Assembly (NCBI GenBank): GCA_002162095.1
Contig: CP021424.1
Span: forward strand, 1,426,001 to 1,490,000
From: Armatimonadetes bacterium Uphvl-Ar2
GTDB taxonomy: Bacteria; Armatimonadota; Fimbriimonadia; Fimbriimonadales; Fimbriimonadaceae
Reading direction: 5' to 3'
DNA length: 64,000 nt
The notes under the pieces: model-generated
The model's database searches: none
Told to the model about the DNA's origin: nothing
Seen by the model: the letters and a program-made list of their open reading frames with translations, nothing else
Position numbers and translations under genes: made by a program
In this document: piece after piece, positions 19,649-24,516 of the stretch
Numbering within the stretch: position 1 is the stretch's first letter
Layout: every line of letters starts with the position of its first letter

Positions 19649-21703
19649 ATGATGCCCGACGACATGAATCCCGAAGAACTGACCGCCGAAGAGATCACCT
19701 CGCAGGAAATCAGTGAAACTCAGTTCAGCCGGGTCGACAAGGCTTACACCGAATCCGATATCCAAGTCCTGAAGGGACTGGAGGCCGTGCGCCTGCGCCC
19801 CGGCATGTACGTGGGCGACAACGGCAAGCGCGGTCTGCACCAGATGTTCCGCGAAGTGCTGGACAACGCCGTGGACGAAGCGCTGGCCGGCCACTGCGAC
19901 CTCATCAAGGTCAAGATTTACGAAGACGGCTCCATGAGCGTGGAGGACAACGGGCGCGGCATCCCCACCGGGATCCACCCCGAAGAAGGCGTCAGCACCC
20001 TCACTCTCGTCATGACCGTACTGCACGCGGGCGGGAAGTTCGAAAAGACCGGCGGCTATAAGGTCTCCGGGGGTCTGCACGGCGTCGGCGTCTCATGCAC
20101 CAACGCCCTCTCGCTGTGGATGGAATCCACCGTGCAGCGCGAAGGCCAAATCTTCCGCCAGCGCTTTGAGCAAGGCGTGCCGGTGGGCGAGCTCGAGATT
20201 CTGGGCAAATCCAAGACCACGGGCACCAAGCAACACTGGATGCCGGACCCCGAGGTGCTGCGAGAAACGGTCTACGACGTCCACATCGTCAAGCACCGCC
20301 TGCGCGAAATTGCGTACCTCAACCCGAACATCACCATCGAATTCAACGATGAGCGCCACCCGGAAGAAGATGAAGTGCTGCACTACACCCGCGGCATCAT
20401 CCAATTGGTGGAAGACAGCAACGACGCCTACGACGTCATTCACAAGCCGATTGCATTCCACCGCATCCGCGAAGGGATGGAGGTCGAGGTCGCCATCCAG
20501 TACCACACCTCCTACAGCACGTCCATCCTGGCCTACACTAATAACATCCATCAACCAGATGGTGGAACCCACGTCTCGGGCTTTAGCGCCGCGCTCACCC
20601 GCGTGCTCAACCAGTACGCCCGCAAGATGAACCTGCTGAAGGAGAAGGACAAGAATTTCACCAGCGACGACGTGATGGAAGGCCTCACCGCCGTCATCGC
20701 GCTCAAGCTGGAGCACGCCAGCTACAACTCGCAAGACAAGGTCAAGCTGGTGAACCCCGAAGTGCAGGGTCTCACCAACTCGCTGGTGGGCGATGGTCTC
20801 ACCACGTTCCTGGAAGAGAACCCGCAGGTGGCCAAGCGCATCATTGATAAGGCGATGATTGCCCAGCGCGCCCGCGAAGAAGCCCGCAAGGCCGCCGAAG
20901 CCGTGAAGCGCAGCAACGCCATGGATAGCTTTGGGCTGCCGGGCAAGCTGAGCGACTGCGTGAGCAAGAACGCCGCCGATTGCGAAATCTATCTCGTGGA
21001 AGGCGACTCGGCCGGGGGCACCGCCAAGGGCGGCCGCGACCGTCTCACTCAGGCCATCCTGCCGCTACGCGGAAAGATCCTCAACGTCGAGCGCGCCCGC
21101 CTAGACAAAGCGCTGGATAACAACGAAATCAAGTCGCTCATCGCGGCCCTGGGCGTCGGGATTGACGTGCTCACCGGGCGCGGCAACTTCGAGCTGGATG
21201 AAGAAGGGGTGAGCAAAGAAAGCAGCCACTTCGACATCACCAAGCTGCGCTACCACAAGATCATCATCATGACGGACGCCGACGTGGACGGCGAACACAT
21301 CCGCACGCTGCTGCTCACGTTCTTCTATCGGTTTATGAAGCCGCTGGTGGTGAACGGGCACATCTATCTCGCCGAGCCGCCGCTCTTCGTCATTAAGGCC
21401 GGGGCCAATGAACGCTATTACGCCATGACGGTGGAAGAGCGCGACGAGATCGTGAAGACGATTAAGAAGAAGAACGTGACCATCACGCGCTTTAAGGGTC
21501 TGGGTGAAATGGAAGCGCATGAGCTGGAAGAAACGGCCATGAACCCAGAAACCCGCCGCCTGGTGCAGGTGAAGTACGACCCGCAGATGGATATGGAAGT
21601 GGAGCGGATGTTCAGCCGCCTGATGGGGGACAAAGTGGAACCCCGCCGGGAGTTCATCGAGCGTCACGCCCGCGCCGTCACCAACCTCGACTGGCACTAT
21701 TAA
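19649..21703 (+). CDS. gyrB: DNA gyrase subunit B
   Basis: About 684 residues; introduces negative supercoils together with GyrA. GHKL ATPase motifs are [23 protein letters not shown], and [19 protein letters not shown] motifs are [15 protein letters not shown] and [16 protein letters not shown]. The C-terminus ([10 protein letters not shown] ... [21 protein letters not shown]) is normal for the short GyrB type. ATG at 19649 or TTG at 19640 could start it; ATG is preferred. The last 34 bp recur twice downstream, behind each pilin gene. ParE is a less likely alternative. Confidence 0.93.
21670..21703 (+). repeat. gyrB-tail direct repeat, copy 1 (inside gyrB)
   Basis: The final 34 bp of gyrB, from CCGCGCCGTCACC to CACTATTAA, encode the last residues and the stop. 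Copies 2 and 3 lie at 23119 and 24483. Confidence 0.9.
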
Positions 21704-21726
21704 GCGCGTCGGAGAACACCTTGCTT

Positions 21727-21747
21727 CCCCGGTGCTGGCCGCCGGGG
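21727..21747 (+). terminator. Hairpin after gyrB (weak terminator candidate)
   Basis: CCCCGG (21727-21732) and CCGGGG (21742-21747) form a 6-bp GC stem with a 9-nt loop. There is no clear T tract, so termination is uncertain. Confidence 0.35.
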
Positions 21748-21771
21748 TAGTTCGAATTGCAACCTGCCGGT

Positions 21772-21777
21772 TATAAT
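21772..21777 (+). promoter_or_regulatory. Consensus -10 TATAAT of cassette 1
   Basis: Perfect TATAAT with TTCGAA at 21751-21756 as a poor -35 (15-nt spacer). The predicted start is near 21784. A strong Shine-Dalgarno GGAGAGGAGG (21791-21800) lies 7 nt before the ATG at 21808, unlike the leaderless genes around it. Confidence 0.5.
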
Positions 21778-21807
21778 TGCCGTCTGGAAGGGAGAGGAGG
21801 CATCCGT

Positions 21808-23191: not shown

Positions 23192-23214
23192 GGGATTGCA
23201 CCTTGGTGCAACCC
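23192..23214 (+). other. Hairpin between cassettes
   Basis: GGG-a-TTGCACC pairs with GGTGCAA-CCC, a 10-bp stem with one bulge, between repeat copy 2 and the next gene. It has no T tract. It could be a terminator remnant, an mRNA structure or part of a recombination site. Confidence 0.4.
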
Positions 23215-23257
23215 ATCCCCAGCGCCTACCGTCTTCCACTGTAGGAGGTGCGGCTTG

Positions 23258-23776
23258 ATGCCTGGGGGTGCAAAGCAGACGGGATTGCCAGCGGCCGTAT
23301 TGTTACTCCACGCCTACACGGTATGCACATTGAACACCTATTGGGTGGTTCTGCGTGTTGTTTTTATGCCGATTGAATCAGATTTAGTCAATCGGCAGGA
23401 GATTCTTGTTTCTGGCGTCGGTGATGCGCTTCGGATGCCCCTCCTTTACTTTGTTCCCGAGTCTACATACTTTTGGTACTCAACAACTCTCAATGGGGTG
23501 GTGGGTGCGCTGGCCTTCACAGTTTACGGACTTGTAGCTCTGTCCTGGCTGAGCAAGCGTAAGGCCATGAGAGTCGTAGCCGGAGTCGCCCTCGCCGTTT
23601 GCGTCTGTATCAGCCTTGTGTTCGTCGCCACCACGCCGGTGCTCCAATGGTACGAGCTGATCATCAAGCTCAGCCTGCTGGCGGCATTAACCGGACTAGG
23701 CATAGCATCCGAGAAGTTGCGTCAAAAGCTCGTGGATAGGCTAGCGGGCGACGAGAAAGAATGGAGTCCATCATGA
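23258..23776 (+). CDS. Four-helix membrane protein of cassette 2
   Basis: 172 residues, paralog of the protein at 21808 and likewise of unknown family. Hydrophobic helices lie at about 12-35, 78-100, 105-128 (VVAGVALAVCVCISLVFVAT) and 133-150. The start follows AGGAGGTG (23243-23250) by 7 nt. It overlaps the next gene by ATGA, so membrane protein and pilin are translationally coupled, which strengthens the view that they form a functional pair. Confidence 0.7.
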   Translation: MPGGAKQTGLPAAVLLLHAYTVCTLNTYWVVLRVVFMPIESDLVNRQEILVSGVGDALRMPLLYFVPESTYFWYSTTLNGVVGALAFTVYGLVALSWLSKRKAMRVVAGVALAVCVCISLVFVATTPVLQWYELIIKLSLLAALTGLGIASEKLRQKLVDRLAGDEKEWSPS

Positions 23777-24480
23777 TTCGGCATGGCACCTCCAACCGAT
23801 GCACGAAGGGAATCACCCTGATCGAAGTAATCGTGTCGCTGGCGGTCATTGCCCTGATCGCGGCCATCGTCTTTCCGGCCATCGCCCGGAGCAAGGAATC
23901 GGCCTATCGCACCAGAGAAGAGGCCTCCCTGCGCCAGATCTACGTGGCCGTCAACCTCTACGAAGCGGATTTCGACCAGCAGGCGTTGCCCTCTTTGGAC
24001 CACCTCAAGGATGGCTATCTCAAGCTCAGCTTCCTGGAGAGCCCCACGGACGTCCGTGCCGCCACCAAGCTTTCGGACTGGCCCGCCAACCCCGGCATCT
24101 ACATTAAGGAGTTCGACAAACCCGAACACCTGGAGCAGCGGTCAACCGCCCGGATCGCCTATTCCTCTCTCAAGTCGTACGAAGGCCGTTATGCGGCTCG
24201 GCGCACGTTCGCCGAATATCGAGACAACCCCGAGCTGGGCATGATTGCCGGCCTGGGTTTGCTCAAGTGCAACGGGGCGTGCGAATACGGCAAGCGCAAC
24301 CCCATCAATTCCGGCCATCCGCCTTCTAACCTCTATGGCTACGTGGGGGCCGTGCGGATGGATGGCTCCATCTTCTTCCGGATTCGCCCGAAGGAGTGCA
24401 CATCCGCCACAATGGGGCACAACAACCTCTTCTTCGCCAAGGACCTCACCTGTAAGGTGTCCCCGGTCACGCAGATCTAA
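23773..24480 (+). CDS. Type IV pilin-like (pseudopilin) protein of cassette 2
   Basis: 235 residues. The leader is cleaved before Ile in KG/ITLIEVIVSLAVIALIAA. The soluble part is collinear with the cassette 1 pilin, including the KCNGACEYG cysteine pair and a C-terminal GHNNLFF. ATG at 23773 is preferred over 23761 because GGAG lies 6 nt upstream and the ATGA overlap couples it to the previous gene. The stop is followed by copy 3 of the gyrB tail. Confidence 0.8.
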   Translation: MIRHGTSNRCTKGITLIEVIVSLAVIALIAAIVFPAIARSKESAYRTREEASLRQIYVAVNLYEADFDQQALPSLDHLKDGYLKLSFLESPTDVRAATKLSDWPANPGIYIKEFDKPEHLEQRSTARIAYSSLKSYEGRYAARRTFAEYRDNPELGMIAGLGLLKCNGACEYGKRNPINSGHPPSNLYGYVGAVRMDGSIFFRIRPKECTSATMGHNNLFFAKDLTCKVSPVTQI

Positions 24481-24482
24481 GT

Positions 24483-24516
24483 CCGCGCCGTCACCAACCT
24501 CGACGGACACTATTAA
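24483..24516 (+). repeat. gyrB-tail direct repeat, copy 3 (diverged)
   Basis: 32 of 34 bases match copies 1 and 2 (CTGG is CGGA here). It sits two bases after the second pilin stop and 1364 bp from copy 2. Confidence 0.9.

Follow-up and report, generated by a model that had tools for sequence, protein, structure and literature searches.

Integron gene cassettes are small gene units carried in an array, each with a site soon after its stop codon. Insertion with long and variable target duplication was reportedly described by Nobusato in 2000 and by Furuta in 2010. Cis-mobilizable elements (CIMEs) undergo tandem accretion at gene 3' ends, according to the available part of PMC5704250, and the accessible text of PMC3031569 and PMC4978471 describes insertion with long, variable target duplication for restriction-modification genes. 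In Helicobacter, a PabI restriction-modification pair lies behind gyrB, as stated in the available extract of PMC4615327. A literature search for elements at gyrB found no integrative element with a gyrB attachment (att) site in the partial texts that it returned. Here, an array of two membrane-protein/pilin gene pairs behind gyrB of Armatimonadetes bacterium Uphvl-Ar2 is compared with these systems, using a window of 64,000 nucleotides (assembly GCA_002162095.1, contig CP021424.1, forward-strand positions 1,426,001 to 1,490,000); the genome (G000) is one contig of 2,633,441 bases (2.63 Mb), and the pairs may be mobile cassettes that enter at gene ends.

The gyrB gene, an open reading frame with orthologs in relatives (19640..21703, plus strand, as are all array features), carries the cassettes at its 3' end. 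Its last 34 bp, including the stop codon, constitute tail copy 1 (21670..21703), the putative att-like core, and recur exactly as tail copy 2 (23119..23152) and with two changes of 34 as tail copy 3 (24483..24516), where TGG becomes GGA in the gyrB frame; the repeat positions given in the initial annotation are thereby confirmed. A search of the whole genome allowing up to three mismatches found only these three copies, all on one strand, and a reversed-pattern control gave zero matches genome-wide; the 34-mer, which the initial annotation had proposed to look for beside other genes, flanks nothing else. Tail copies 2 and 3 each begin two bases past a pilin TAA and also have in common six bases leftward (CTAAGT) and one base rightward; the same spacing had been claimed for every copy, but copy 1 is gyrB itself. 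Both cassettes follow one plan of leader, membrane-protein gene (m), pilin gene (p), TAA, two bases and tail, each measuring about 1.4 kb: without its tail, cassette 1 occupies 21704..23118 (104-bp leader, m1, p1 and two bases) and cassette 2 occupies 23153..24482 (105-bp leader, m2, p2 and two bases), as read from the sequence layout. The m and p genes are the only genes of size in each cassette, and G+C content is 54.8% in cassette 1 and 57.6% in cassette 2, against 62.4% in the surrounding 150 kb. As in a CIME, direct att-like repeats border the array on both sides and the end of gyrB is restored.

The two pairs between the tails are paralogous, as had been proposed. The small membrane proteins m1 (21808..22359, 183 aa) and m2 (23258..23776, 172 aa, overlapping the start of p2) are 41% identical and match no family above the curated cut-offs of Pfam and NCBIfam; judged from sequence by eye, they are probably four-helix membrane proteins. 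The pilin-like proteins p1 (22400..23116, 238 aa) and p2 (23761..24480, 239 aa) are 68-70% identical (69% in DNA), and in both the prepilin N_methyl motif exceeds the Pfam cut-off. A structure model of p1 reached a mean predicted local distance difference test (pLDDT) score of 48 and was set aside as a basis.

A gyrB search gave a match in 97 of 101 genomes, and 30 loci were inspected, consisting of the window and 29 loci from other genomes, with about 1.5 kb read downstream of gyrB at each (one contig stopped 163 bp past gyrB). No second gyrB tail lies downstream at the 29 other loci, where the best match is 20/34. The sister genome (G001) encodes an identical GyrB, and the two gyrB genes differ at 41 sites, all synonymous (synonymous divergence, dS, 0.09). 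Behind gyrB the sister has an accessory gene of 608 aa, next the same native PEP-CTERM gene that lies beyond the array in G000 (24622..25344, plus strand; assigned from Pfam and synteny) and then lepA. It carries one gyrB tail only (33/34), with no tail copy at the far end of the 608-aa gene, which has homologs in 31 of 85 family genomes and none in G000. In a congener (G002), gyrB is followed by a 337-bp gap, a different PEP-CTERM gene and lepA. Neither genome has a pilin match at E 1e-15, a pair or an extra tail behind gyrB. The G000/G001 alignment extends five bases beyond the gyrB stop and restarts at the end of tail 3 (1-2 bases after it), which is the outer border of the array; the first 80 bp beyond are 69% identical (55/80), a value that is low yet not unique among non-coding DNA there, and identity then exceeds 90%. 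The gyrB tail of G002 differs at five positions, and tail copies 2 and 3 have the G000-lineage state at 5/5. The gene directly upstream of gyrB (18597-19531) is replaced in G001 by a relative of about 29% identity, and both sides of gyrB are thus variable between the sisters. In two order-level relatives (G084:C92 and G085:C14), a stretch of about 1.4-1.7 kb interrupts gyrB at residue 545 and leaves a single open frame (1305 and 1251 aa), the arrangement expected of an intein.

The same layout recurs behind other genes in two further lineages. In G019 and G043, which share one site, a direct repeat of 113 bp brackets the pair and has no further copies in either genome. The copy on the left forms the 3' end of a small gene with a frame that closes with TAA, and the right copy closes with TAG; the small gene was taken as real because it has a 38% homolog in G054. 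The four copies have 11 variable columns, 9 of them at third codon positions (binomial 0.0014), suggesting that they diverged as coding ends, and the right copy of G043 has 9-10 differences from the other three with 3/37 residues changed. The 113-bp repeat was also considered as a piece of a transposase, read from an antisense frame, but the Pfam DDE_5 match reached only E 0.12, below cut-off, and the repeat is really the sense 3' end of the small gene. In G102, the pair lies between a gene named azoR from its sequence, a putative assignment, and a dehydrogenase gene on the same strand. Past the pair, 9 bp before the dehydrogenase start, the final 15 bp of azoR recur with the stop included; this spacing to the next same-strand gene is usual within an operon. 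The longest tail match in 20,000 Markov shuffles of the 1-kb flank was 12, compared with the 15 observed, and the repeat taken as a plain flank match has E 0.006. No empty sites were found for the small gene or azoR; the 19 other genomes of the genus concerned gave no azoR match at E 1e-30, and plasmid searches with azoR and its neighbour gene gave only matches below 60% identity, which were not used. In all three lineages the repeat stops no more than 1 base from the stop codon, and its length varies with the locus (34, 113 and 15 bp), as in long target duplication.

A profile built from the pilin was searched in the 85 family genomes, where the weaker matches reflect mainly the common N-terminus. 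Relatives over most of the length were found in 12 of them, G000 included, at 11 independent loci (G019 and G043 counting as one); there are none in viral contigs and plasmids, and GTDB contigs gave two weak N-terminal matches. The first 30 bases of the gyrB 34-mer were likewise absent from viral contigs. At 8/11 loci a cysteine-rich secreted peptide is encoded ahead of the pair, and 7 of these loci additionally have a gene for a multi-CxxC protein there, these proteins being mostly alike by BLASTP; the peptide of G113 was recognised by eye, having been missed by the script motif. Tail copies occur at exactly those three loci that hold only m and p, an association of short form and tail copy with a Fisher p of 0.006 for a grouping chosen after the data were seen. 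The longer form is a recurrent operon in which the multi-CxxC protein and the small, cysteine-rich peptide that is secreted (in many cases bearing a WCC motif) are encoded, in this order, before m and p; it lies upstream of the pilin at L071, L073, L144, L145, L146, L147 and L148, and in part at L072. The CxxC proteins of L071, L146, L147 and L148 and the peptides of L071 and L146 belong to no Pfam family. Such an operon could produce or export a disulfide-rich peptide together with the pseudopilin. No complete integrative and conjugative element (ICE), integrative and mobilizable element (IME) or island lies near the 11 loci in the stretches read. At L071 (G107), a 103-aa frame on the minus strand (3195-3506) has a partial serine-recombinase domain (PF07508, E 7.7e-08, above cut-off) and overlaps the end of the pilin gene on the opposite strand, and an IS110 remnant lies near the pilin locus of G105.

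A control over 535,592 bases, which looked for repeats 26 bp or longer terminating at the stop codon of a frame with at least 120 codons, found them at gyrB, at the G019/G043 locus and at the end of a PEP-CTERM-type gene in L061. An exact copy of a gene's last 15 bp within 5 kb downstream was found for 2/483 genes, namely gyrB and one PEP-CTERM-type gene of G001; an overlap filter dropped some genes from this count, including azoR, and the small gene of G019/G043 was added to the scan by hand and not counted, its copies differing in those 15 bases. A chance repeat at gyrB is ruled out by the exact 34-mer, the whole-genome search and the 483-gene test. Over 107 kb compared between G000 and G001, seven inserts were examined: one at the gyrB site of each genome, plus five elsewhere. 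No copied gene end borders any of these five, one of which holds two PEP-CTERM-type genes with like ends. Another of the five, a two-gene insert in G001 at L105 10091-12167 (contig 14, 28091-30167), has beside it a decayed 121-bp duplicate of the following gene's start, a mirror-image counterpart of the gene-tail copies. As regards a transposon, 0/14 inverted pairs listed for 19500-27000 lie at both ends of a cassette, so terminal inverted repeats were not found. The tail was also considered as a structured RNA and rejected, the regions around the three tails folding no better than shuffles.

The age of the pairs stands in contrast to that of the tails. The dS between p1 and p2 is 1.66, near saturation (Nei-Gojobori, own script), yet tails 2 and 3 differ from gyrB at 0 and 2 of 34 positions. 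This value, together with the 41% identity of the membrane proteins, indicates that the pairs parted long before the G000/G001 split. Passive tail copies dating back to the pilin split would not have this appearance; either the two cassettes arrived afterwards at a single site and were joined identically, or use has preserved the site.

The best reading of these data, which we rate as having an even chance of being correct, is that mobile cassettes enter at gene ends with a tail of their own and that a recombinase acting in trans uses the tail as an att-like core. The membrane-protein/pilin pair would be a compact mobile cassette, about 1.4 kb at gyrB, that lacks a recombinase gene of its own and joins the chromosome at a host gene's 3' end. 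By bringing along its own copy of the gene tail, it would make the host gene whole again, and the former tail would end up beyond the cassette. The gyrB site would have been hit twice, by two long-diverged cassettes of one family, giving two cassettes and three tails, and the joining would most likely be carried out on the tail in the fashion of CIMEs. The pattern of three tails for two cassettes favours accretion, and the same join (CTAAGT plus tail) in two diverged gyrB cassettes favours a recombinase in trans. The G+C content of the cassettes, below that of their surroundings, the lineage-type bases of tail copies 2 and 3 and the restart of homology with G001 directly behind tail 3 also speak for this reading. 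That the outer copy is the old gene end is suggested by the coding-type differences in G043 and the operon-like spacing in G102. The end of the repeat at the stop codon would be expected if the gene end arrives as part of the incoming DNA, since homology across organisms tends to run out at that point, and random staggered breaks would not produce it. Insertion at the gyrB 3' end, as the initial annotation had it, is supported by absence from the congeners, the right-hand break at tail 3 and the recurrence of the layout in two lineages, and its model of a cassette with its own tail followed by a second accretion gains from a pilin divergence predating the G000/G001 split and from the third-position differences elsewhere. 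The site-specific insertion that it envisaged stands less well, given that the tails vary between loci, that the 34-mer flanks nothing else and that the cassettes hold no integrase. Observed directly are the repeats, the borders of the array, its absence from the congeners, the divergence contrast and the recurrence of the layout behind other genes; we infer that the inner tail arrived with the cassette, in which order the two insertions occurred and that a recombinase took part.

Several points weigh against this reading. The four cassette proteins contain no recombinase in Pfam and NCBIfam scans, in line with the earlier remark that no integrase is present, and the cassettes contain no integration or transfer genes. 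No PF00589 gene of G000 is tied to gyrB, serine recombinases not having been searched for, and tail sequence and length differ per locus, such that one enzyme would not explain all three loci. Relatives had been expected to reveal empty sites; the pairs and extra tail are indeed absent from G001 and G002, but a strict empty site was not seen at gyrB: a different gene occupies the position in G001, and G002 is too diverged in its intergenic DNA for alignment. The left copy of G043 and G019's right copy are identical, a hint of exchange between copies that makes it harder to tell the older one. G102 is a weaker case, with a repeat of only 15 bp, and the same scan gave an unexplained 16-bp flank match of similar strength in G019 (E 0.002). 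Finally, the eight loci with the long operon have no tail copy, their flank matches being no better than E 0.069 and judged to be chance.

A possible alternative, to which we lean less than halfway, is a long, variable target duplication without a dedicated recombinase, in which a relative's gene end plus pair would recombine by homology at the gene and illegitimately at the other end, or would enter as a circle by single crossover; the second gyrB cassette would then come from recombination between the 34-bp tails of two strains with different pairs. Different tails per locus and the lack of an integrase favour such recombination during DNA uptake. The repeats vary in length and sequence by locus (15, 34 and 113 bp), end at the stop codon, the point at which homology across organisms would be expected to run out, and have diverged as coding sequence, and the cassettes hold no recombinase. 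Insertions of this kind are described for restriction-modification genes in the available part of PMC3031569, and the portion of PMC3240628 at hand describes one-sided homologous recombination for transformation and conjugation. Against it, one join common to two strongly diverged cassettes needs an extra step of allele replacement or exchange, and a donor order of gyrB then pair without a tail copy was not seen in up to 1.5 kb behind gyrB at the 29 loci from other genomes or in the extended stretches. It is also conceivable, though unlikely, that recombinase-less pilin mini-cassettes insert at the stop codons of unrelated protein genes with a variable tail duplication by a gene-end-directed mechanism distinct from both classical integrases and transposases, with the short form as a mobile offshoot of the longer operon that is not flanked by tails.

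Tandem duplication or triplication in place of a unit of gyrB tail and pair, followed by deletion and divergence, is very improbable. The units are paralogous with an equal plan and leaders of 104 and 105 bp, but these leaders show no similarity (25-34% ungapped identity) and the deletion would have to end exactly at the tail. A pilin dS of 1.66 is set against 0 and 2 changes in a 34-bp non-coding tail, which disfavours the triplication and deletion offered in the initial annotation as an alternative, and against a dS of 0.09 to a sister without pairs. Simple duplication of a unit starting in gyrB is rejected on the ground given there, namely that it yields two tails only, and the dS contrast opposes it too. 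Integron-type gene cassettes or XerCD (dif-like) modules would likewise have genes closely trailed by a repeated short site in tandem, but they hardly come into question, as no GTTRRRY or RYYYAAC core of an attC site lies in the 120-bp stretches around the three tails, the best dif match is 10-11/28 against a shuffle mean of 10.2 (with reference dif sites entered by hand) and the tail regions have no unusual fold.

G000 encodes four tyrosine recombinases (PF00589), two with open frames of 293 and 305 aa and two (427 and 381 aa) that border a 23-kb stretch with a 33-bp repeat. In this stretch (G000:C1:485658-510100; L098, L099), the two integrase genes lie about 23 kb apart, each beside a copy of the repeat, with several large genes between. 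The repeat looks like a tRNA 3' end and not like gyrB, and ARAGORN found no tRNA there. Elsewhere in the window, 32931-34811 is a tandem duplication with 1033-bp spacing and long stretches more than 90% identical.

If the preferred reading of mobile cassettes at gene ends is true, single accessory gene pairs would move between bacteria via the ends of even essential genes, harmlessly, and would leave a readable scar, giving a simple route to small integrations that integrase searches miss. The three lineages would serve as sequence-level cases for how recombinase-less genes insert with long target duplications. Compared with integrons, the array has the same small units with a site close behind the stop codon, but lacks an attC core near the tails, and its repeated site is the coding end of the host gene. 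The Helicobacter PabI locus likewise has an accessory gene pair directly downstream of gyrB; its cargo is unrelated, and the available extract of PMC4615327 mentions no gyrB tail repeat. With long target duplication, as far as the accessible descriptions go, the array shares recombinase-less genes between direct repeats of target sequence of variable length, and differs in that its cargo is a pilin pair and not a restriction-modification system, its repeat always ends at the stop codon and two units are stacked. With CIMEs, as outlined in the available part of PMC5704250, it shares flanking att-like repeats derived from the target gene end, the lack of integration and transfer genes, an intact target and tandem units, and it differs in its size of 1.4 kb and two genes per unit and in having no known parent ICE or IME and no known site recombinase. 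The structure of the array fits a CIME in tandem accretion, minus the known parent element and recombinase, and also fits a long target duplication.

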